In this document: piece by piece, positions 1 through 11,090 of the stretch
How positions within the stretch are numbered: the stretch's first letter is position 1
How the letters are laid out: each line of letters opens with the position of its first letter
From: a virus
Length of the DNA: 25,868 bases
Virus record (IMG/VR): IMGVR_UViG_3300008055_001374
Span: 1-25,868 of that record
Direction: 5' to 3' (one strand)
Position numbers and translations under genes: made by a program
Notes under the pieces: generated by a model
What the model was told of the DNA's origin: nothing
Seen by the model: the letters and a program-made list of their open reading frames with translations, nothing else
Databases searched by the model: none

Positions 1-647
1 ATACAGTCAAAGTATGCGTGGATCTCACGTGATCCATCAAACGCAGCAGTACGCACGTGATCTGGTTTGTAAGAAAGGTGAGGATATGCTTCTTTGTACA
101 CGTCAAATGTCTTGCGACGAATCATCATAAAGCCGGTACCAAGCTCCATAACCTCAACTGGTTGATTGATTGGGATTTCTTTTGCGCCACCTTTAGGGTT
201 GAACACATAGTCACCAACAAACTTTTCAAGGTTGTTAGGATCCTCATCAGCAAAGCCTTTATCAACAGCAATCTTGATCTTTTCCCAGCTAATGCACTTT
301 TTAGGATATGGACCACCAATAATGTCGTATTCACTCTCATCTGTCTGCAAAGCAAGCAATGCAATAACATCTTGCGGGTTAAAACCAATATCGCTATCAA
401 TAAACATCAAATGAGTTGCATCGCTACGTAAGAACTCATCAACGCAATAGTTACGCGCACGAGTAATCAAAGACTCGTTAAACAAGTAATAGAGCTGAAG
501 AGGAATCTCATACTTGGCACAAATAGCAGCTAAATCTGCAATAGAACGCGCGTACATGCCTGCACAAGCGCCACCATACATTGGTGTTGCTACAAATAGT
601 TTTTTCTTTTGTAAATCGCCAACGGGTACTTTAATTTCAAATGACAT
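1..647 (-). CDS. Glycosyltransferase-like protein, 3' end cut by window edge
   Basis: An open frame starts at ATG 647 and runs off the left edge with no stop, giving 215 codons. After a short N-terminus comes a GT-A-like fold pattern: a strand LFVATPMYGG near residue 17, then MFIDSDIGF with a DSD metal-binding-type motif, then IIGGPYPKK and a block ending in LGTGFMMIRRKTF. I recognise this set from proteins annotated as glycosyltransferases in T4-like aquatic phages. Family knowledge suggests transfer of a sugar from a nucleotide sugar; the acceptor (DNA base, glycan or protein) cannot be read from the sequence. It follows the dCTP deaminase/dUTPase-like gene by 22 bases. The ribosome-binding site is weak (AAAGAAAG). 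It may be part of the modification operon or simply its neighbour. Confidence 0.7.
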   Translation of the reverse strand, partial: MSFEIKVPVGDLQKKKLFVATPMYGGACAGMYARSIADLAAICAKYEIPLQLYYLFNESLITRARNYCVDEFLRSDATHLMFIDSDIGFNPQDVIALLALQTDESEYDIIGGPYPKKCISWEKIKIAVDKGFADEDPNNLEKFVGDYVFNPKGGAKEIPINQPVEVMELGTGFMMIRRKTFDVYKEAYPHLSYKPDHVRTAAFDGSREIHAYFDC

Positions 648-669: not shown

Positions 670-1290
670 TTATTTTTTTGTAGTCCCAAATGGACGACCT
701 GGTTTACGTTTAACTGGCTCTGGTGGTTTCTCTACTTTGAGTGTTGGGTCAACTTCAATGCCAAGAGCTTTCAGGTCCTGTTGAGCATTGTATGCTTCTG
801 TTTGGTATTTGATATCGTGCTGTTTACCACGACCATAGCTACCTTCGTACTTGTGCAATGCTTCAGCGTTGAAACTAAGGTATTGACCAATACGGGTACC
901 CTTTTGAATACGCATAGGACCACACGTGACATGCATCACACCCGCCATTACACCATCGTAACCAGAATCATATAGCCCCGATGTAAGGAATACGCCGTTA
1001 CGGTTCAATGTTGATCGAGTAATCACCCAACCGGCTTCATTGTCACCAACTACTATCATGTTTTCCATTACTACTTCATAATGGCCTTCAGGTAAATTGT
1101 AATAGCCAAGCGGATCCGGTTTCATCTCATACGAACCGCGATGTACTTTTTGCTTCTCATCAATTATAAATGTCGACTGTGACATTTTAAAGACTTTGCC
1201 TAGTCTAAGATCAACCGCATTAGGTTGAACATCACCCTCCTGAACATTAGATAGCGTCGATCTACTTTCAGGCCCCATAATATGCTTCAT
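670..1290 (-). CDS. dCTP deaminase/dUTPase superfamily protein
   Basis: A 206-residue protein of the Dcd/Dut trimeric beta fold. Seen near the N-terminus is VQPNAVDLRLG, the Dcd-type opening motif; in the middle TRSTLNRNGVFLTSG, then LYDSGYDG, and RIGQYLSF towards the C-terminal side. The tail is Lys/Pro-rich (KRKPGRP). Members deaminate dCTP and/or hydrolyse dUTP, keeping uracil out of DNA. The Asp of YDSGY corresponds to the substrate-binding Asp of both families, but the Glu that dCTP deaminases use for catalysis (E138 in the E. coli enzyme) falls on Val in my hand alignment, which favours dUTPase-like or altered activity. I chose ATG 1290 because it overlaps the kinase stop as ATGA and has AAGGAG five bases upstream; an in-frame GTG at 1296 has no room for that site. 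Confidence 0.75.
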   Translation of the reverse strand: MKHIMGPESRSTLSNVQEGDVQPNAVDLRLGKVFKMSQSTFIIDEKQKVHRGSYEMKPDPLGYYNLPEGHYEVVMENMIVVGDNEAGWVITRSTLNRNGVFLTSGLYDSGYDGVMAGVMHVTCGPMRIQKGTRIGQYLSFNAEALHKYEGSYGRGKQHDIKYQTEAYNAQQDLKALGIEVDPTLKVEKPPEPVKRKPGRPFGTTKK

Positions 1291-1877
1291 GCCCACTCCT
1301 TCATAATATTATCCATAACACTATTCACTCTTGTTTTAAGATAAGCTAAGTCTCCATCATTTAATACCTGATAGTCAACAAGGTTATCATTGAATCCGCG
1401 CTCTGTAATATGTCCATCGTACTCATAGTTAGGACGTTTGATGTTAATAATCTTAGCACCTAAGTTCTTCATTGCAAGATATTCATTGTCAAAACGTAGA
1501 TCAGTTACAACCCAAACATCGTTAGGTTGATACCGAATCTCTCCAATAACATAATTGGTAAACTGCTTTTCATCATACTTACGCATCAGCATACCAATCC
1601 CACGAACAAGATGTCTGCCTTCTACACGATACTGTTGCATGTCTCTTGTTACTTGCTTAGGCAAACAAAATTCAACAGTCGTTCGTTTAAAGTCATCATA
1701 CTCTTGCATTGTCTCAAAGACAAACAAATCTCTTACAACTGTCTTTATAGGATCAGCAAACGCAATTGTATGTGTTTTGAATACAGGCGCTGTATTAAAG
1801 TATTGTTTGATTAGAGCACCAACTGTATCTTTACCAGACCCCTTAGGTCCGGTAAGTGCAATCACTTTTAAGTTCAT
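1287..1877 (-). CDS. 1: Deoxynucleoside monophosphate kinase (T4 gp1-like)
   Basis: A 196-residue P-loop kinase. The Walker A motif GPKGSGKDT lies at about residues 10-18 after a hydrophobic strand, in the pattern of T4 gene 1 dNMP kinase (241 residues). TDLRFDNEY in the C-terminal half is a second conserved kinase region. The enzyme phosphorylates dNMPs, in T4 including the modified dCMP, to supply dNTPs for phage DNA. It sits between dpdA and the dCTP deaminase/dUTPase-like gene in a nucleotide and DNA-modification operon. ATG 1877 is preferred; an in-frame TTG at 1889 would add four residues and overlap dpdA, but the P-loop spacing fits the ATG and neither start has a strong ribosome-binding site. 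Confidence 0.8.
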   Translation of the reverse strand: MNLKVIALTGPKGSGKDTVGALIKQYFNTAPVFKTHTIAFADPIKTVVRDLFVFETMQEYDDFKRTTVEFCLPKQVTRDMQQYRVEGRHLVRGIGMLMRKYDEKQFTNYVIGEIRYQPNDVWVVTDLRFDNEYLAMKNLGAKIINIKRPNYEYDGHITERGFNDNLVDYQVLNDGDLAYLKTRVNSVMDNIMKEWA

Positions 1878-1879
1878 GT

Positions 1880-2725
1880 TTAGTTGCAAAGAGAATTAAT
1901 GTATTTAATGTTATCATAAACAGCCAACGTATTATGCTCACCTTCGTAAGAAAAATCAACCTCTTTTTCAAACTTACCATTCATCAGCCCAGTCGGTGAG
2001 TTATCAAAGCGGATACCGTTAATACCAGCCCATACAGCAGCACTCGAATCCCATGTAAAGATAAAGTCATGGTACTCACGCAACAGGTCAATCTCTTTTG
2101 GTCCATCAACCATACCAAGACAATGGAAACGTTTTCTTGCGTTGTTGTTAAGCAAGTTACGTTTCTCTAGTTCACGGAATACAGCAAGACGGGACAGGTA
2201 GCGTTGCATTTTATACGCATCGTTACGTTTACCACCCTCAAACGTTGTCTCATCAACACCACAAGCAATTGGCGCTCCAAGAATAGACAATCCGATCAGA
2301 TCAACTTCTGGTGTATTCAGTGCCCACTCAACAGCGTTAATGTAATCGGTCATGTCACCGAGCTCACTCTGCGGTACAAAAAACGTACCAAATCCAGCAG
2401 CCCTAAACTCAGGAATCAACTTCTTTGCAGCATCAACTGTAACACGTGACTGTTGCTTTGGATAGTCAGAAAGGACGATGCAGTTTGCTTTGCATTGCTT
2501 GCCCATCTCAATCAGCTTACTTGACTCATACATTGGCAGACCGAGCTTAAACATCTCAAAAGCACTGTTGTCCATAATCTTATACTTGCCATCATCAAGG
2601 TTGGCATAGTAATCGCGATACTCTGGATCCTCTTCAACCAAATGAGCAAGTATCAGATGTGCACCATTTTTACGAGTATACTTTTCAAGATACTTGGTAG
2701 GGCTAATATGACAAAAATTAATCAT
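1880..2725 (-). CDS. dpdA: DpdA-type guanine transglycosylase (TGT-like, acts on DNA)
   Basis: A 281-residue TIM-barrel-like protein resembling tRNA-guanine transglycosylase, but shorter and without its C-terminal CxCxxC..H zinc site. Residues in order: MDNSAFEM (TGT substrate-binding Asp region), VLSDYPKQ, IGLSILG (compare the TGT GLAxGG loop), FHCLGM (compare HxLG) and FTWDSSAAV, whose Asp is my candidate nucleophile. Known phage DpdA proteins exchange guanine in DNA for 7-deazaguanine bases. The neighbouring FolE, QueD and QueE genes would supply the base, which strongly supports this role over a tRNA one. ATG 2725 is chosen because it follows the upstream stop directly; the longer frame to 2782 would overlap the T-fold gene. 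The alternative is an uncharacterised TGT paralogue acting on tRNA. Confidence 0.8.
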   Translation of the reverse strand: MINFCHISPTKYLEKYTRKNGAHLILAHLVEEDPEYRDYYANLDDGKYKIMDNSAFEMFKLGLPMYESSKLIEMGKQCKANCIVLSDYPKQQSRVTVDAAKKLIPEFRAAGFGTFFVPQSELGDMTDYINAVEWALNTPEVDLIGLSILGAPIACGVDETTFEGGKRNDAYKMQRYLSRLAVFRELEKRNLLNNNARKRFHCLGMVDGPKEIDLLREYHDFIFTWDSSAAVWAGINGIRFDNSPTGLMNGKFEKEVDFSYEGEHNTLAVYDNIKYINSLCN

Positions 2726-2726
2726 T

Positions 2727-3119
2727 TTATACTTTCGGAAAATACATACGGCAACCATTCTCACCGTCTTCTGATACTTCAATCACATAGTCTCTATCTG
2801 GCCACATGTTAATACATTTTGCATAAAGATCTCTTGCCATCATCTCACAGGACTTGTAGTCGAGCTGCAAAATACTATCTGCGTACCAGCGTTCCATAAT
2901 ACGCTTTGCTTGGATAAACTCAATATCACGATCGTCAAAAAATACTTCCATCTCTACACGAAAGTGAAAGATGTGACGATGTGGGGTACCCAAAAAACTA
3001 ACATCAAGCCAGTCTCCTGTTGCTAGTTTTGGATCTGTAGCAGCTTGAGGGTACTTGTGAATGCCCTCTTTCTGAAACGTCACCCAAATAAAACTTTTTT
3101 GCATTACAAAATCACTCAC
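2727..3119 (-). CDS. QueD-like T-fold protein without the catalytic Cys
   Basis: A 130-residue protein of a family I know only as unknown phage protein, but it can be aligned by hand to QueD. H21 (GIHKYP) matches the first zinc His; H47 and H49 (PHRHIFHFRVEMEV) match the HxH pair; DRDIEF matches the conserved DF turn; SCEMMARDLY matches the TSENLA helix; and E117 (VSED) matches the C-terminal Glu. The QueD catalytic Cys, four residues before the second His, is Leu43. So a zinc T-fold is likely but 6-carboxytetrahydropterin synthesis is not. Position next to dpdA suggests processing of a deazaguanine; the predicted CDG decarboxylase DpdL is one candidate identity. GTG 3119 is chosen because AAAGGA lies about six bases upstream; ATG 3104 is the alternative. 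Confidence 0.6.
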   Translation of the reverse strand: MSDFVMQKSFIWVTFQKEGIHKYPQAATDPKLATGDWLDVSFLGTPHRHIFHFRVEMEVFFDDRDIEFIQAKRIMERWYADSILQLDYKSCEMMARDLYAKCINMWPDRDYVIEVSEDGENGCRMYFPKV

Positions 3120-3120
3120 T

Positions 3121-3720
3121 TTAGTTCCTTTCAATAACAGCCTGACCATGGCGCGTTATATTAATTTGTATTTCTTTACCAAAAGATTCGCATATAAAAT
3201 CTACGGCGCGCTTTGGTCGTAAAAGATGATCATCCGTTGCCATTTTATTTGCATAATCATCAACGACAATTATACCACTCTTTTTGATTAAAAGCAACGA
3301 TAATGTTAGATCAACGAGTGTGTCTCTCTGGGTGTGTGATCCATCCAAGTAAATAAAATCAACAGTTTGATAATATGATGGTAATAAATTAGATAAATGT
3401 ACTTCCGATAAACCATTATAAACAGTGATTTGGTCTTTGTAGGGATGCTGATCAATATTGTTGCTAAAATTTTCCTTAACAATTTTCATGTCAAAAGGTA
3501 AATTGGTACGCTCAATTTCTTCACCACCCTCCCATGAATCAATACATATTAATTCTGAATCGGAGTTATTTTTAAGATAGTCGGCAAACCAAACTGTTGA
3601 TCTACCCTCAAAACAACCAATCTCCATTATTACAAATGGTTTAGTAGATACTACTCCATCTAATAAAAAACTCCATATGGACCTATGAACAGTTGACCAA
3701 TCACGGTAATTAAACTGCAT
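3121..3720 (-). CDS. Class I SAM-dependent methyltransferase
   Basis: A 199-residue Rossmann-fold methyltransferase. Motif I is IMEIGCFEGRSTVW at about residues 31-44. An acidic strand end, ICIDSWEGG, would bind the ribose of SAM. YLDGSHTQRDTLVDL followed by GIIVVDDY matches the Methyltransf_24/CmcI-like group, which uses metal- and SAM-dependent O-methylation on small molecules or sugars. The target is not visible from sequence: it could be a glycan, given the glycosyltransferase and sugar-dehydrogenase-like neighbours, or a modified base, given dpdA two genes away. It lies one base upstream of the T-fold gene, with GAAG just ahead of its ATG. The fold assignment is firm, the substrate open. 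Confidence 0.75.
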   Translation of the reverse strand: MQFNYRDWSTVHRSIWSFLLDGVVSTKPFVIMEIGCFEGRSTVWFADYLKNNSDSELICIDSWEGGEEIERTNLPFDMKIVKENFSNNIDQHPYKDQITVYNGLSEVHLSNLLPSYYQTVDFIYLDGSHTQRDTLVDLTLSLLLIKKSGIIVVDDYANKMATDDHLLRPKRAVDFICESFGKEIQINITRHGQAVIERN

Positions 3721-3725
3721 ATCTT

Positions 3726-4196
3726 CTAATTAACTTTTCTTTTTGTAATAAAAGGAAGTTTATGTCGTGCAGTTATTTCAAGCAATCCTGCCCGGAGATA
3801 GCTATTATCACGTAACCATTTAATCATATCTTGACGTGAATACCATGCAATCCATTTTGTTTCAAGACAAACATGACATATACGATCGCTGATTTTTTTA
3901 GGAGAGCGTAACCAACCGTCAGGGGTAGTTTCAACATAGAAGTTTCCATACTTGTCCATGTTTGCTTTAACATCCACAGAGTAGTAATTCCTCCACGTCG
4001 GAGCTTTAATTTCTATATCAATACCTCTTACTTGATGGTATTTGCTTTCTTCACGATCAATTACATCATAGCCCCATCCAATATTAGCATTTATTACAAG
4101 CAATTCAGCTTCACGAGCTCGTACAATACTAGGTTTATTACCGAAAGCTTTCATAAGTGTAGGTGTCCATTCTTTTGTTAAACGACTATTGGTCAT
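3726..4196 (-). CDS. Unknown phage protein with a PD-(D/E)XK-like motif
   Basis: A 156-residue protein related in my memory to unknown proteins of T4-like aquatic phages. What can be seen is a possible nuclease core: an early Glu in RAREAELLV, then GIDIEIKA with a strand-borne Asp, then YSVDVKANMDKYG, whose DVK fits the (D/E)xK element, then a strand NFYVETT. This order and spacing fit the PD-(D/E)XK nuclease fold, but this is inference from a pattern. The later segment KWIAWYSRQDMIKWL looks like an amphipathic helix. Its start overlaps the folE stop as ATGA, placing it in the deazaguanine operon, where a modification-sensitive nuclease would make sense. It may equally be a non-catalytic relative. 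Confidence 0.5.
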   Translation of the reverse strand: MTNSRLTKEWTPTLMKAFGNKPSIVRAREAELLVINANIGWGYDVIDREESKYHQVRGIDIEIKAPTWRNYYSVDVKANMDKYGNFYVETTPDGWLRSPKKISDRICHVCLETKWIAWYSRQDMIKWLRDNSYLRAGLLEITARHKLPFITKRKVN

Positions 4197-4867
4197 TTCA
4201 TTCTCGCTGAGTTTAAGAATTCGCGGCGCAGTTCTGAATTAGCTTCAGCAAATGCACCACGTGTTGCTAACGTCATGGTCGATGACGTTACGTCCTGAAT
4301 ACCACGTGACTTTACGCAGTAATGAACACCTTCAATATAAACAGCTACATCGGGAGATCCTGTAATGTAGGAAATTGTTTCAGCAATTTGCTCTGTCAAA
4401 CGTTCTTGCACTTGAGGACGTTTAGAGAAGAACTGAACAATTCTGTTTAGTTTTGACAAACCAAGTATGGTTTTCTTCGGAATGTATGCAACGGTTGCTT
4501 TACCGTCAATAACAACGAAATGGTGCTCACAGTTAGACTGAACATTAATATTACGTTCCAACACAAAGCTGTTCGTCTCTCCCATCTTATTTTCAATTCT
4601 TGTGCACTTGGGGAAATTTTCATAATTTAATCCTGTAAAGATTTCACGCACATACATCTTTGCAACACGATTTGGTGTATCTGTCAAGGAGTCATCTGTC
4701 AAATCAAGACCAAGTTCTTCCATGATTGCAGTAAAGTGTTTTGCAATTACCTTAATTTTCTTTTCATCTTTTACCTGAACTTGTTCATAGTTCATTGGTG
4801 TCTCTAACCCAACACTAACTAAATGTTCATGTACCTTAGCACCCAGTGCTGCGTCTGTCTTTTCCAT
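4193..4867 (-). CDS. folE: GTP cyclohydrolase I (FolE), first step to deazaguanine
   Basis: A 224-residue protein, the usual FolE-I length. The zinc ligands are intact: C113 and H116 in SNCEHHF and C184 in HYCVKSRGIQ, with the same spacing as C110/H113/C181 of the E. coli enzyme. ILGLSKLNRIV and RPQVQERLT are the conserved core, and GIQDVTSSTMT is close to the family signature. It converts GTP to 7,8-dihydroneopterin triphosphate, the substrate of QueD. With queD and queE upstream and dpdA downstream it belongs to deazaguanine synthesis rather than folate supply. GGAG lies about five bases before ATG 4867, supporting this start. Confidence 0.93.
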   Translation of the reverse strand: MEKTDAALGAKVHEHLVSVGLETPMNYEQVQVKDEKKIKVIAKHFTAIMEELGLDLTDDSLTDTPNRVAKMYVREIFTGLNYENFPKCTRIENKMGETNSFVLERNINVQSNCEHHFVVIDGKATVAYIPKKTILGLSKLNRIVQFFSKRPQVQERLTEQIAETISYITGSPDVAVYIEGVHYCVKSRGIQDVTSSTMTLATRGAFAEANSELRREFLNSARMK

Positions 4868-4874
4868 ATAACTC

Positions 4875-5096
4875 CTACTTCTTTGGTGGTTTAGGAGGCA
4901 CGTCCGGAAACGTACCCCATGGTTGCTTCAATTCAGATTGTACATGATCTGGTGGTCCAATGTCAACCCAGTTTCTTGAAAGAATAGTTTGACCTTTTAC
5001 ACATCCATCTTTTACAACATACCGAACTTGGTTCTCAATATGATCGTAGACACCATCAGGTACCCACGCAAATTGTTTGAATCCCGTACTAGCCAT
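4875..5096 (-). CDS. Small hypothetical protein between folE and queD
   Basis: A 73-residue protein I do not recognise. It has no signal peptide, membrane segment or clear metal motif; it holds several Trp and Tyr residues (FAWVPDGVYDH, NWVDIGPPDH) and ends in a Pro/Lys-rich tail (DVPPKPPKK). Its ATG overlaps the queD stop (TAATG), and its own stop is seven bases before folE, so the operon position supports it being real even though the ribosome-binding site is weak. A function in the deazaguanine pathway is possible only by association. Confidence 0.55.
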   Translation of the reverse strand: MASTGFKQFAWVPDGVYDHIENQVRYVVKDGCVKGQTILSRNWVDIGPPDHVQSELKQPWGTFPDVPPKPPKK

Positions 5097-5626
5097 TAAC
5101 GAACATCTTCAAACAGATCCTCATTCCATTCACGGTGTCCTTCGCGGAATGCCATATTCGCTTGTGTTTCACGTACTTCTACGCGGTAGCACCACAAGCG
5201 ATCTGCCTCTCCCTGTCCCCAGTAATCAGGAATGTAAACGCCGTTCACAAACTTATACAGTTGGTCAGCTAATCCTTCACAACCTAACTTGGGAAGAATT
5301 GTTAGCTTAGCAAGGTTGCGTTTCTCCATCTCTTTATAGAAATCAAGCTCAGGATCATCCTCGGCAACGAGCAACGTATGATCAAATTGATCTTCAAGAA
5401 TTTTTTTCAACTCTTTGAGACCACCATAATCAGCACACCAGTTGCGTGCATCAAGATTGTTTGTTCCAAAATAGAACTTCATGTTAAAACTATAACCATG
5501 AATTAGATTGCAATGGCTATCTGCTCTCCATTGACGATACGCACAAGGAAAGGAGTCATGATATTCCTTTGTTGAAACGTACTTGTATTGAATTGGTCTA
5601 TTGCCAAATGATGTTTGATCCCACAT
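5096..5626 (-). CDS. queD: 6-carboxy-tetrahydropterin synthase family (QueD)
   Basis: A 176-residue T-fold enzyme. C39 in SHCNLIHG is the catalytic Cys, four residues before H43, and FDHTLLVAEDDPEL carries the catalytic Asp-His region. VEVRET near the C-terminus holds the conserved Glu. QueD turns dihydroneopterin triphosphate from FolE into 6-carboxytetrahydropterin for QueE. Oddly, two usual zinc histidines are Tyr here: Y30 in PCAYRQW (for AAHR) and Y45 in HGYSF (for HGH). I recall the same RQW...HGY pattern from a proteobacterial QueD-like subgroup, so this is probably a subfamily trait. ATG 5626 directly follows the queE TAA; the longer frame to 5773 runs inside queE and is not used. Confidence 0.85.
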   Translation of the reverse strand: MWDQTSFGNRPIQYKYVSTKEYHDSFPCAYRQWRADSHCNLIHGYSFNMKFYFGTNNLDARNWCADYGGLKELKKILEDQFDHTLLVAEDDPELDFYKEMEKRNLAKLTILPKLGCEGLADQLYKFVNGVYIPDYWGQGEADRLWCYRVEVRETQANMAFREGHREWNEDLFEDVR

Positions 5627-5627
5627 A

Positions 5628-6545
5628 TTATGTTCCCATTGTGTTTCCCCAGATATGCACATGCACTCTTGAGGAATAGTTGTAACCACGCTTAAATGCC
5701 TCTTCAGCAATTTTAGCTTCTCCGATGTAACCAGCTTCGGTTCCCTTCTGAGCTTCAAGTGTTGCTCCAACACCCATAATCCAGACCGGATATGTCACGC
5801 CTACTTCCCTGAACTTCTCGATTGTTGCTTCGAGCTCATCCCAAGACTCCTGCTTACCACTAACAACAAACTTCAGTTGCCCATGTGGTGATAAATTTTG
5901 ATAACTTTTTACTATATCAGGACAGATAGCATCTTCTGCTTTCTCGCCCGATGTTGTAAACAGTTTTGGTGATACAGAGAAGAATACCTCTCCAGGATAT
6001 GCTTCACCAAAATATGAAGAAAATTCCGACGTCAACGGTTGAGTACCGTTCGTCTCCCATGTCATAAACAACGGGAAGTCACCTTCCGTAGCAAAGTGGT
6101 CAATGATAGCAATTGATGCGTGTTGTGCATGCTTCATCAAAGGCTCGCCACCTGTAAAGCACATATGCTGCATTGTACCGTTAATCTTATTAAACTTACC
6201 TTCAGGATTAGAAGGATGATACATTGACTGACGAATACGGTTACAAACCTCTTCTGCAGTATGTTTATGCTGTAAATGTTTAAACTTTGCAGACCACGAA
6301 TATGATGAATCACACCCATACTTCCATACAGGAAGATCTTCTAGCTTTTTAATGCTAGAGATATCTATTTGCTGATAAGGAAGTATATAGGTAGATGGAT
6401 CTGTGGGATCCTTCTGGCCGAAACCATCACACTGAAGGTTGCACAGAAAAAATCTTAGCCAGGCTGTTGGCCGGCCCGTATAATGACCCTCACCCTGAAT
6501 TGAGTGAAAGATCTCACTATATGCAATTGGTTTACTTGTATTCAT
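5628..6545 (-). CDS. queE: 7-carboxy-7-deazaguanine synthase, radical SAM (QueE)
   Basis: A 305-residue radical SAM enzyme that turns 6-carboxytetrahydropterin into 7-carboxy-7-deazaguanine (CDG). Seen: SIQGEGHYTGRPTAWLRF, the QueE opening, then C35 and C39 (FLCNLQC) and GCDSSYSW with C78. The GGEP motif (FTGGEPL) and WETNGT follow and match the family. Canonical QueE has a compact Cys cluster; here 38 residues separate the second and third Cys, so the enzyme belongs to a divergent, longer subgroup. The start overlaps the end of the dehydrogenase-like gene by 14 bases, and queD follows after one base. This gene and queD define the CDG branch of the operon. Confidence 0.88.
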   Translation of the reverse strand: MNTSKPIAYSEIFHSIQGEGHYTGRPTAWLRFFLCNLQCDGFGQKDPTDPSTYILPYQQIDISSIKKLEDLPVWKYGCDSSYSWSAKFKHLQHKHTAEEVCNRIRQSMYHPSNPEGKFNKINGTMQHMCFTGGEPLMKHAQHASIAIIDHFATEGDFPLFMTWETNGTQPLTSEFSSYFGEAYPGEVFFSVSPKLFTTSGEKAEDAICPDIVKSYQNLSPHGQLKFVVSGKQESWDELEATIEKFREVGVTYPVWIMGVGATLEAQKGTEAGYIGEAKIAEEAFKRGYNYSSRVHVHIWGNTMGT

Positions 6546-7296
6546 TGTAAGCTCTCATCTGATCATTTGTTTCAATTACCGCATTCCAAAAACCATGGTG
6601 AGGAAATGTTGCATTAAGACATCTTATATCTTTTGGAAGACAATGTCCACCAAAACCGAACCCATGCTCACCAGGTACTTGTGTATGTGCAGGACCAACT
6701 CTTACATCTGCGATAGCACCTAAACGAACAGTTTCAAAATCAGCACCATACTGTTTACATGCTCTGTACATCATGTTTGCATATGTAACTTTCAATGCAA
6801 GGCCAGCATTTTGATGGAGTTTAATTAAAGCGCTTTCAACTAATGTACAGTAATGTAATTGTTCTTTTGTACCATAATTGTGTTGTGTTAACCAGTTGCC
6901 AAGACGTTCTGTGTGTTCACGTTTACCACCAAGAACAACAATCCACGGCTGATCCAAATACTCCCCATCTCCTTGTTTCATAAACTCTGGAAAATGAACA
7001 ATTTTAAGATCAGTGTAAATATGTTCCCAATTGTTTATAAAAGAAGGATGTAAGGTACAACGAATAGCGACAATACCTGAAAAATTACTTTTGTGAAGTC
7101 TTTCTAAGCAATCTTCTATTGCTATGTGATCGTATGGACCCTGCACGAGGGAGCTTACACATATAAAAGCAATATTGTATTTGCTAAAATCTTCAACAAC
7201 ATATCCTTTTTGTGGATCGTGAAAATCAGCTTCTGTTCCTAGCGTAAGGTCTGTTGCCATGCCAACCTTACCTTTACCAAATATAACTATACTCAT
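6532..7296 (-). CDS. UDP-glucose/GDP-mannose dehydrogenase-like, short form
   Basis: A 254-residue protein with the nucleotide-sugar 6-dehydrogenase pattern. An N-terminal NAD site is seen as IFGKGKVG (GxGxxG). E154, K159, N163, K169 and N174 in the ESALIKLHQNAGLALK region match the conserved central helix. The catalytic Cys is C219 in GFGFGGHCLPKD. Typical enzymes have 390-450 residues, with a C-terminal sugar-nucleotide-binding domain after the Cys; here only about 35 residues follow it, so that domain is missing. It either acts on a different substrate or needs a partner. The start overlaps the deformylase stop as ATGA, and queE overlaps its end, so it is co-transcribed with the deazaguanine genes. 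Confidence 0.75.
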   Translation of the reverse strand: MSIVIFGKGKVGMATDLTLGTEADFHDPQKGYVVEDFSKYNIAFICVSSLVQGPYDHIAIEDCLERLHKSNFSGIVAIRCTLHPSFINNWEHIYTDLKIVHFPEFMKQGDGEYLDQPWIVVLGGKREHTERLGNWLTQHNYGTKEQLHYCTLVESALIKLHQNAGLALKVTYANMMYRACKQYGADFETVRLGAIADVRVGPAHTQVPGEHGFGFGGHCLPKDIRCLNATFPHHGFWNAVIETNDQMRAYNEYK

Positions 7297-9520: not shown

Positions 9521-10582
9521 CTACTCCACACTTAGTGCTTCTTGATAGAGTTCTCTCATAAGATTGTCAAGAGGTTGTTTATCAACACTATCATCCAACT
9601 GATTTACATACTTGCTAAGGATTGTTAATGTGTCTTCTGCTTCACTAACAATGTCATCTTCATTCTCAATATCCATATGAAAATGGTCATCAACAACTTG
9701 AACATTATACACGCCAGCTTTTTCTAACTTATCAACAAACATATCAAAGCAGTAAGGGTTAGTTTTATTGCGAACAATCAACTTGACAAACGTCTCACTA
9801 TACACACTAAAATCAATGTTGACAACTTCGCTTATTTGTTTATCCGTATCATCATAATGAAGTTTGTGGAAAATCACATTGGGATTGGGGACAAATGTTA
9901 GGCTACGATCTTCTGTATTATATACATGAAACCCCTTTTGGTCACCATAGTCGGACCATGTCATCTCGTATGGTGTACCAAGATAATGAATGTTATGACT
10001 ATGTGACTTGTGATGAAAGTGACCAGACAAAACCATCTCAAGATCGGCAAATGTCTTATGCGTCATTCCACCTTCATGGATTGCGCCTTTGTACATCTCA
10101 AAACCATCAATCTCAAAGTGTCCAACCACAACGTTTGCACGAGTTTTGCCTAGGGCACTGATGCACTGATTTTCGTTCTCAGGACTAATCCAAGGCATCA
10201 AAAGGAAGTTAACATCACCATCAAATTGAATATCGGTAGGACTGTTAACTTTTGCAATATTGTGATAACCATCAAGCAATAGTTCAAGTGAATTCACCTC
10301 ATTGGTATTCTTAAAATATGTATCGTGGTTACCGACTAACATCCATGTGGTGTATTCGTTGTTCAAACGGTCGAACAAATACCCACGAGCTTGCTTTAAT
10401 GAGTTGAAGTTAATGTACTTGCGTCTATCAAACACATCACCAAGTTGTATTACATGGAGAATGTTTTCTCTTTCGAGATACGGAAAGAACACCTCATTAT
10501 AAAATTTAGCAAAAAACTTGTGAAAAGCGGGACTGTCGTTTCTTGCGCCTATGTGTGTGTCGCCAAGCAACGCGATTAACAT
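9521..10582 (-). CDS. 47: Recombination nuclease subunit gp47 (Mre11/SbcD-like)
   Basis: A 353-residue calcineurin-type phosphoesterase. Metal ligands are visible in order: GDTHIG (D8, H10), LGDVFDRR (D49), GNHDTYF (N85, H86), a His in VVVGHFE and SGHFHHKS. This is the exonuclease partner of gp46, producing 3' single-stranded DNA for strand invasion. Length is close to T4 gp47 (339 residues). AAGGA lies about six bases upstream of ATG 10582, in the 31-base gap after the cupin gene. It is followed closely by gene 46, as in T4. Confidence 0.95.
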   Translation of the reverse strand: MLIALLGDTHIGARNDSPAFHKFFAKFYNEVFFPYLERENILHVIQLGDVFDRRKYINFNSLKQARGYLFDRLNNEYTTWMLVGNHDTYFKNTNEVNSLELLLDGYHNIAKVNSPTDIQFDGDVNFLLMPWISPENENQCISALGKTRANVVVGHFEIDGFEMYKGAIHEGGMTHKTFADLEMVLSGHFHHKSHSHNIHYLGTPYEMTWSDYGDQKGFHVYNTEDRSLTFVPNPNVIFHKLHYDDTDKQISEVVNIDFSVYSETFVKLIVRNKTNPYCFDMFVDKLEKAGVYNVQVVDDHFHMDIENEDDIVSEAEDTLTILSKYVNQLDDSVDKQPLDNLMRELYQEALSVE

Positions 10583-10613
10583 TTGTTTTCCTTGATGTAA
10601 TTTATCAGCTTAT

Positions 10614-11090
10614 TCATATTAAAATATCAGCATTTCCTGGTTTTAATGTTCCTTCTTCTTCGGCTCTAAGAATACACTTTAATCTTTCTTCAGGTGTCAT
10701 ATCAAACGCCAGTCCCCTTTGGGTTTTTACTTTATTTTTATCAACATGAGAAGGAGTTCCAATAATTTCACCCCCCTCTTCTCTTACAGCATGAACACAA
10801 CAAACAATTGTATTATCCTCTAAAGCTGTTATTTCATGTTCGCGATAGCTACGAGTAACAAACATTGATGTTCCGGCATATTCCTTTATCTCCTCAGGCA
10901 AATCACCTTCAGGGACAGAACTAAATTTTACACTTATTTTACCAGCTGCTACCAACGTAACATGATCATATTCATGGTGATGTCCACAATACACCATTCC
11001 CTTTTCTTTGAAAATCATTTTCTTTACAAAAACATTATGCTGAAAGAAATGTTCCATTTCAATTTGTTTATTGATATGGTGCTTATTCAT
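10614..11090 (-). CDS. Cupin-fold protein of unknown function
   Basis: A 158-residue protein with a single small beta-barrel of cupin type. Motif 1 is HHHEYDHVTLVAAGKISVKF, with closely spaced His residues and an acid as possible metal ligands; motif 2 is SYREHEITALEDNTIVCC. A C-terminal segment (TPEERLKCILRAEEE) is probably helical. Cupins range from dioxygenases and isomerases to binding proteins, so no reaction can be named. It lies between genes 55 and 47. GGAGGT sits just ahead of two adjacent ATGs; the second (11090) has better spacing and overlaps the gp55 stop, while the first is at 11093. Confidence 0.6.
   Translation of the reverse strand: MNKHHINKQIEMEHFFQHNVFVKKMIFKEKGMVYCGHHHEYDHVTLVAAGKISVKFSSVPEGDLPEEIKEYAGTSMFVTRSYREHEITALEDNTIVCCVHAVREEGGEIIGTPSHVDKNKVKTQRGLAFDMTPEERLKCILRAEEEGTLKPGNADILI

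Follow-up and report, generated by a model that had tools for sequence, protein, structure and literature searches.

Which enzyme acts after QueE in phages that have no QueC? The product of QueE is 7-carboxy-7-deazaguanine (CDG), and the next enzyme of the pathway is QueC (PMC6884629). The question is raised by a stretch of viral DNA of 25,868 nucleotides (the window; IMG/VR record IMGVR_UViG_3300008055_001374) in which FolE, QueD, QueE and DpdA are all encoded on the minus strand, and in which a sequence-only reading had proposed a second T-fold protein as a candidate CDG-processing enzyme. Phages without QueC represent a gap in the 7-deazaguanine scheme, and the family of this protein is a single candidate gene for that gap. 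We propose a candidate zinc-dependent T-fold enzyme that acts on CDG in phages without QueC, most likely decarboxylating it, and give this reading a probability of about 0.5. As far as we know, the family's size and spread, its T-fold model, the pattern of QueC replacement, the three modules in which the gene occurs and its nearly exclusive glycosyltransferase partner are new.

The T-fold gene, its neighbours and its spread

The T-fold open reading frame (Table 1) begins with a GTG at 3119, preceded by an AAAGGA ribosome site, and reaches its stop at 2727 after 130 codons; on the plus strand, stops break the same interval and leave no open frame. A single base separates the methyltransferase stop from this GTG, and again a single base separates the T-fold stop from the ATG of dpdA, so that the three genes look translationally coupled. 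The immediate proximity to dpdA, already noticed from the sequence, concerns a protein whose model resembles archaeal-type TGT (arcTGT 1iq8, Z 17.0) and DpdA (7ui4, Z 16.1) and thus has the TGT/DpdA fold. In phage records, all four that have this small type of DpdA also have the T-fold gene. In most relatives the methyltransferase gene does not recur next to the T-fold gene.

Table 1. Genes of the window considered here
Gene	Position	Strand	Properties
GT-A-like gene, truncated at window end	3-647	(-)	relatives: phrog_1574
dCTP deaminase/dUTPase-like	670-1296	(-)	PF22769; recurs downstream of dpdA in small-DpdA module
deoxynucleoside monophosphate kinase-like	1287..1889	(-)	after dpdA; frequent neighbour in small-DpdA module (17 loci)
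dpdA, small type, 281 aa	1880..2725	(-)	DNA-guanine transglycosylase-like; AF2 model pLDDT 87
T-fold gene, phrog_17812 family	2727..3119	(-)	130 aa; zinc triad, E117, Leu43
methyltransferase	3121..3720	(-)	PF13578, E 7e-22; directly upstream of T-fold gene
folE (GTP cyclohydrolase I)	4193..4867	(-)	NF006824 and TIGR00063 above cut-off
queD (first T-fold protein)	5096..5629	(-)	PF01242, E 4.9e-14; phrog_2389
queE (CDG synthase, radical SAM)	5628..6545	(-)	phrog_2076, E 2e-51
UDP-glucose/GDP-mannose dehydrogenase-like	6532-7296	(-)	PF00984; directly upstream of queE

Translation of queD probably begins at an internal ATG (5629), as the longer frame (5096-5773) overlaps queE. The name of the kinase-like gene is taken from its similarity to an annotated dpdA neighbour in Vibrio phage D479. 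The GT-A-like gene was considered as a pathway member and set aside: it is found in 27 T-fold loci, but its relatives in 63 phage records lie mostly in phages without the T-fold gene, and it is therefore probably outside the pathway.

Neither Pfam nor NCBIfam yielded a family match for the 130-aa protein, which matches phrog_17812, a family without functional annotation, over most of its length (E 7e-29). Relatives are encoded in 26 phage records and in at least 598 stretches of viral contigs, and the cultured phages among the carriers include phiST, PA5oct/Paride, ACP17 and Phosso. Among prokaryote genomes (one per species, 84,980 species) they occur on eight MAG contigs only, which are probably phage DNA, and a search of plasmids found none. 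A viral scan queried with the phiST homologue gave no matches, which suggests that the distant Bacteroidota branch of the family is thinly sampled. In a few cases the domain forms the C-terminal part of a larger protein, as in Vibrio phage Bakedbeans (383 aa; L085, 7230-8381) and Chryseobacterium phage MA9V-3 (293 aa; L091, 7431-8312). The viral structure library likewise contains long proteins with this domain, annotated as alcohol dehydrogenase and as AAA domain.

Fold and active-site residues

Run against the sequences of the PDB, the family profile returned chance matches only, and the T-fold assignment therefore rests on a structure model, based on a 38-member alignment of the family. The model has a mean pLDDT of 94.4 and the element order beta-beta-alpha-(short beta)-alpha-beta-beta. 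All of its top 18 Foldseek matches are QueD or PTPS. A second structure aligner gives Z 12.6 for PTPS (2dj6) and Z 12.0 for E. coli QueD (4ntk; 2.2 Å over 110 residues), and FolB, QueF-L (Z 9.5), urate oxidase and FolE rank below these. As modelled, the protein is confirmed as a second T-fold protein with the fold of QueD, in agreement with what had been proposed. QueF and QueF-L are also T-fold enzymes that act on a 7-deazaguanine (preQ0), but the similarity to them is lower than to QueD, and their substrate is not made without QueC. QueF acts on the nitrile through a nucleophilic Cys; one Cys, C91, is invariant in the present family.

Correspondences between individual residues were taken from alignments. 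Profile-profile alignment places H47 and H49 on the zinc ligands His31 and His33 of E. coli QueD, E117 on the base-binding Glu110 and E92 on Glu86. H21 was paired by eye with His16 through the match of EGIHKYP with EAAHRLP. The position of Cys27 is occupied by Leu43, and the catalytic Asp70 and His71 align with A80 and D81 in a variable stretch, so that both are lost. The earlier hand alignment, which had paired H21, H47, H49 and E117 with QueD and had put Leu43 in place of the Cys, is thereby upheld. L43, H47, H49, V59, R64, E67, S90, C91, E92 and E117 are invariant in all 106 homologues compared; H21 and D118 are kept in 105, R48 in 104 and H61 in 102. This degree of invariance is far beyond chance. 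The window copy itself departs from the family in having Phe61 (codon TTT, 2937-2939, minus strand) at the near-invariant His position, which calls for caution in any claim on this copy alone.

With Leu at the Cys27 position and Asp70 and His71 lost, the protein is not a QueD. What it shares with QueD and PTPS (PF01242) is the fold (Z 12), the zinc His triad, the substrate-binding Glu and a (T/S)xE before the second helix. The differences include, besides the three missing catalytic residues and the lack of a Pfam match, an HRH in place of HGH between the zinc ligands and an invariant set of its own (R64, E67 and S90-C91, with D118 in 105 of 106). Judged from the aligned residues, the family keeps zinc and base binding, has lost the QueD chemistry and has acquired a set of invariant polar residues of its own.

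The T-fold gene in the place of QueC

No QueC is encoded within the window, as had been noted; as the record covers a fragment of just 25.9 kb, this absence alone shows little. The complete genomes are more telling. Eleven distinct complete phages with the T-fold gene encode FolE (11/11), QueE (11/11) and QueD (10/11), and ten of them lack QueC. The exception is Vibrio phage D479, which encodes, besides the T-fold protein, a divergent protein that resembles QueC and has a Cys cluster of the QueC type (L125, 708-1514, minus strand). A weak QueC match in Xanthomonas phage X1 was discarded, being an NAD synthetase by its sequence as read by eye. None of 50 viral contigs reaches the QueC cut-off. 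Conversely, QueC or a QueC-bearing fusion is present in all eight pathway phages examined that lack the T-fold gene (R5C, Pan1, pf16, IME-SM1, phi38:2, immuto, PhiXhv-12 and 9g), and a T-fold profile search of these eight gave no match. Phage 9g has its QueC as Gat-QueC (PMC6884629). For the 11 carriers against the eight controls, which were picked by relatedness of their pathway genes and not randomly, the presence and absence of QueC and the T-fold gene give a Fisher p of 1.2e-4.

Related phages show the exchange within one locus. The closest known relative of the genus Menderavirus, which includes Stenotrophomonas phage IME-SM1, is Acidovorax phage ACP17 (PMC9025141). In the segment that the RecA-like recombinase and primase-helicase genes enclose, IME-SM1 has the order FolE, ino1, small ORF, QueC, DpdA2, QueE, and ACP17 the order QueD, FolE, small ORF, DpdA2, glycosyltransferase, T-fold gene, QueE. 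The IME-SM1 gene at 9524-10735 is called DpdA2 from its position and from DpdA2 matches in 16 Stenotrophomonas records. The presence of the T-fold gene in place of QueC points to a branch at CDG. A similar contrast is seen in Cellulophaga phages, where the phiST group has a T-fold homologue and no QueC, whereas phi38:2 has QueC and QueF. The gene between folE and queC in IME-SM1 encodes an inositol-3-phosphate synthase (L124, 7037-8293).

In many phages, then, the T-fold protein takes the place of QueC. It shares with QueC (PF06508) the branch point of the pathway and, in related phages, the locus, but it has a different fold and no ATP-pyrophosphatase motif, and the two are mutually exclusive in ten of the 11 carriers. 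The presence/absence pattern and the locus swap lend the proposed role in CDG processing much stronger support than could be drawn from one fragment.

Three modules and the candidate reactions

The enzyme reading draws on the fold, the retained zinc and base-binding residues, the loss of QueD catalysis, the linkage to FolE, QueE, QueD and DpdA, and the replacement of QueC. The substrate would probably be CDG. The reaction, for which the odds are about even, would be its decarboxylation to 7-deazaguanine (DG). In such a mechanism, the base of CDG would be held by E117 in a QueD-like pocket, and a zinc ion on H21, H47 and H49 would polarise the substrate. The family-specific Arg48/Arg64, His61 and Cys91, whose individual roles are inferred, would replace the Cys-Asp-His chemistry of QueD by holding the carboxylate and supplying a proton to C7. 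DpdA, the product of the neighbouring gene, would then swap guanine in DNA for DG.

Decarboxylation is the simplest reaction, and it matches the dDG and dCDG that have been reported in phage DNA. It would also agree with a phage CDG decarboxylase that Cui and colleagues reportedly predicted in 2023 and named DpdL. DpdL would be expected after QueE in phages without QueC. In the window, a fragment, the T-fold gene is encoded with FolE, QueD, QueE and DpdA and without QueC, and the phiST-group Cellulophaga phages, which also lack QueC, carry the family. By this analogy of context it is plausible that the T-fold protein is DpdL. None of the papers available to a literature search dealt with DpdL as a CDG decarboxylase, with dCDG or with glycosylated deazaguanine; we know of no proof of the predicted activity, and of no T-fold decarboxylase. 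Against the decarboxylase reading stand the missing His61 of the window copy, Vibrio phage D479, where the T-fold gene coexists with a QueC-like protein, and the possibility that the host supplies QueC.

The wider family complicates a plain decarboxylase ending, as it is large, serves three types of transglycosylase and has a glycosyltransferase beside two of them, none of which the sequence-only reading had foreseen. About 102 T-fold loci include three module types without overlap among them. In module (i), to which the window belongs, the T-fold gene lies directly before small DpdA (37 loci); in module (ii) it lies directly after DpdA2 (37 loci); in module (iii) it accompanies a 500-aa, weakly TGT-like protein (22 loci). 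Adjacency within 150 nt is seen for dpdA in 29 of the 37 loci of module (i), and the DpdA2 gene is adjacent in 36 of 37. The third type of transglycosylase has no sequence match in the PDB; it is taken for a TGT on the strength of a single weak match, to a phage protein annotated as TGT.

A GT-B glycosyltransferase, often accompanied by a nucleotide-sugar epimerase, occurs in 36/37 loci of module (ii), 20/22 of module (iii) and 0/37 of module (i) (Fisher p 4e-21, a descriptive value since the loci are related). Among 50,697 phage records, the main glycosyltransferase matches only ACP17, X1 and BUCT-ZZ01, all of them T-fold carriers, which points to a glycosylated 7-deazaguanine. The PA5oct glycosyltransferase has matches in its own group and in Phosso, ACP17 and X1, with weaker ones in PhiXhv and Ep032 phages. 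It is possible, though we hold it only tentatively, that many phages use a QueC-independent branch in which DpdA2 or the third type inserts the 7-deazaguanine base and the accompanying GT-B adds a sugar. If true, the glycosylated base might serve the phage in evading restriction by its host.

The glycosyltransferase in two of three module types is a difficulty for DG, which offers no hydroxyl or carboxyl acceptor. There are three ways out: the glycosyltransferase has another target, the sugar is attached to C7 as a C-glycoside, or the T-fold enzyme yields something other than DG. Were CDG decarboxylated, C-glycosylation would have to take place at the freed C7, and we know of no phage DNA modification of this kind. 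The last of these options leads to the strongest competitor of the decarboxylase, a T-fold enzyme that converts CDG to a derivative with a sugar acceptor, which DpdA inserts and the glycosyltransferase modifies in some phages. Examples would be an oxidative decarboxylation, imaginable from urate oxidase, which has a T-fold and is among the fold matches, or an activation of the carboxylate. The frequency of the glycosyltransferase in the DpdA2 and third-type loci and the restriction of the main one to T-fold carriers speak for such a product. In a tree, T-fold proteins from module (i), without glycosyltransferase, and from module (ii), with it, intermix, and the nearest relatives of the window protein are of both kinds, so the enzyme probably does the same step, with the same product, in both. 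However, the T-fold gene has no redox or ATP partner that stays next to it in all modules, and the modules without glycosyltransferase, those of the window and phiST included, manage without glycosylation. The glycosyltransferase may not even need this product, given that a related one adjoins Gat-QueC in PhiXhv phages. On balance we consider a sugar-acceptor product rather unlikely.

The protein might, instead of catalysing anything, hold CDG in the old pterin pocket and pass it unchanged to DpdA, which would yield dCDG. The catalytic Cys, Asp and His of QueD are all gone and the zinc and base-binding residues kept, as would befit an escort, and the translational coupling to dpdA fits equally well. 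However, the new invariant polar residues (R64, E67, S90, C91, E92 and D118) are too many for a mere binder, and the one protein is shared by three divergent types of transglycosylase, which makes this role improbable.

It is more improbable still that the T-fold protein is a partner subunit of QueD, bringing zinc to a shared site in which QueD provides Cys, Asp and His. The attraction lies in an exact complement: the QueD of the window keeps Cys27, His31, Asp70-His71 and Glu110, whereas Tyr replaces two of its three zinc-binding His residues (His16 and His33), and most QueDs of T-fold carriers are alike in this respect. However, the same QueD type occurs in phages that have QueC and lack the T-fold gene (R5C, IME-SM1, Pan1, phi38:2 and immuto), for which reason a heteromeric site is unlikely, and in the carriers PA5oct, Bakedbeans, Ahp1 and L097 the zinc His residues of QueD are the canonical ones. 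QueD of the type with an altered zinc site is widespread in phages both with and without QueC. Finally, conversion of CDG to preQ0 by a functional substitute for QueC would suit a gene in the QueC slot, but turning a carboxylate into a nitrile needs ATP activation and ammonia, and a 130-aa T-fold protein with no recognisable nucleotide site is hardly a credible catalyst for it.

In Xanthomonas phage PhiXhv-12 (L138, 5735-8969), QueC lies in a 521-codon frame annotated as glutamine amidotransferase, which is likely a Gat-QueC fusion. It is followed by a gene annotated as a PIG-L-type deacetylase and by a glycosyltransferase akin to the one that accompanies the T-fold gene; a sugar-bearing archaeosine-type modification is possible for this cluster. 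In some third-type modules (L068, 4550-5458; L073, 6554-7453), the T-fold gene is preceded by a Gfo/Idh/MocA-type oxidoreductase and by a protein whose N-terminal domain is that of an alcohol dehydrogenase.
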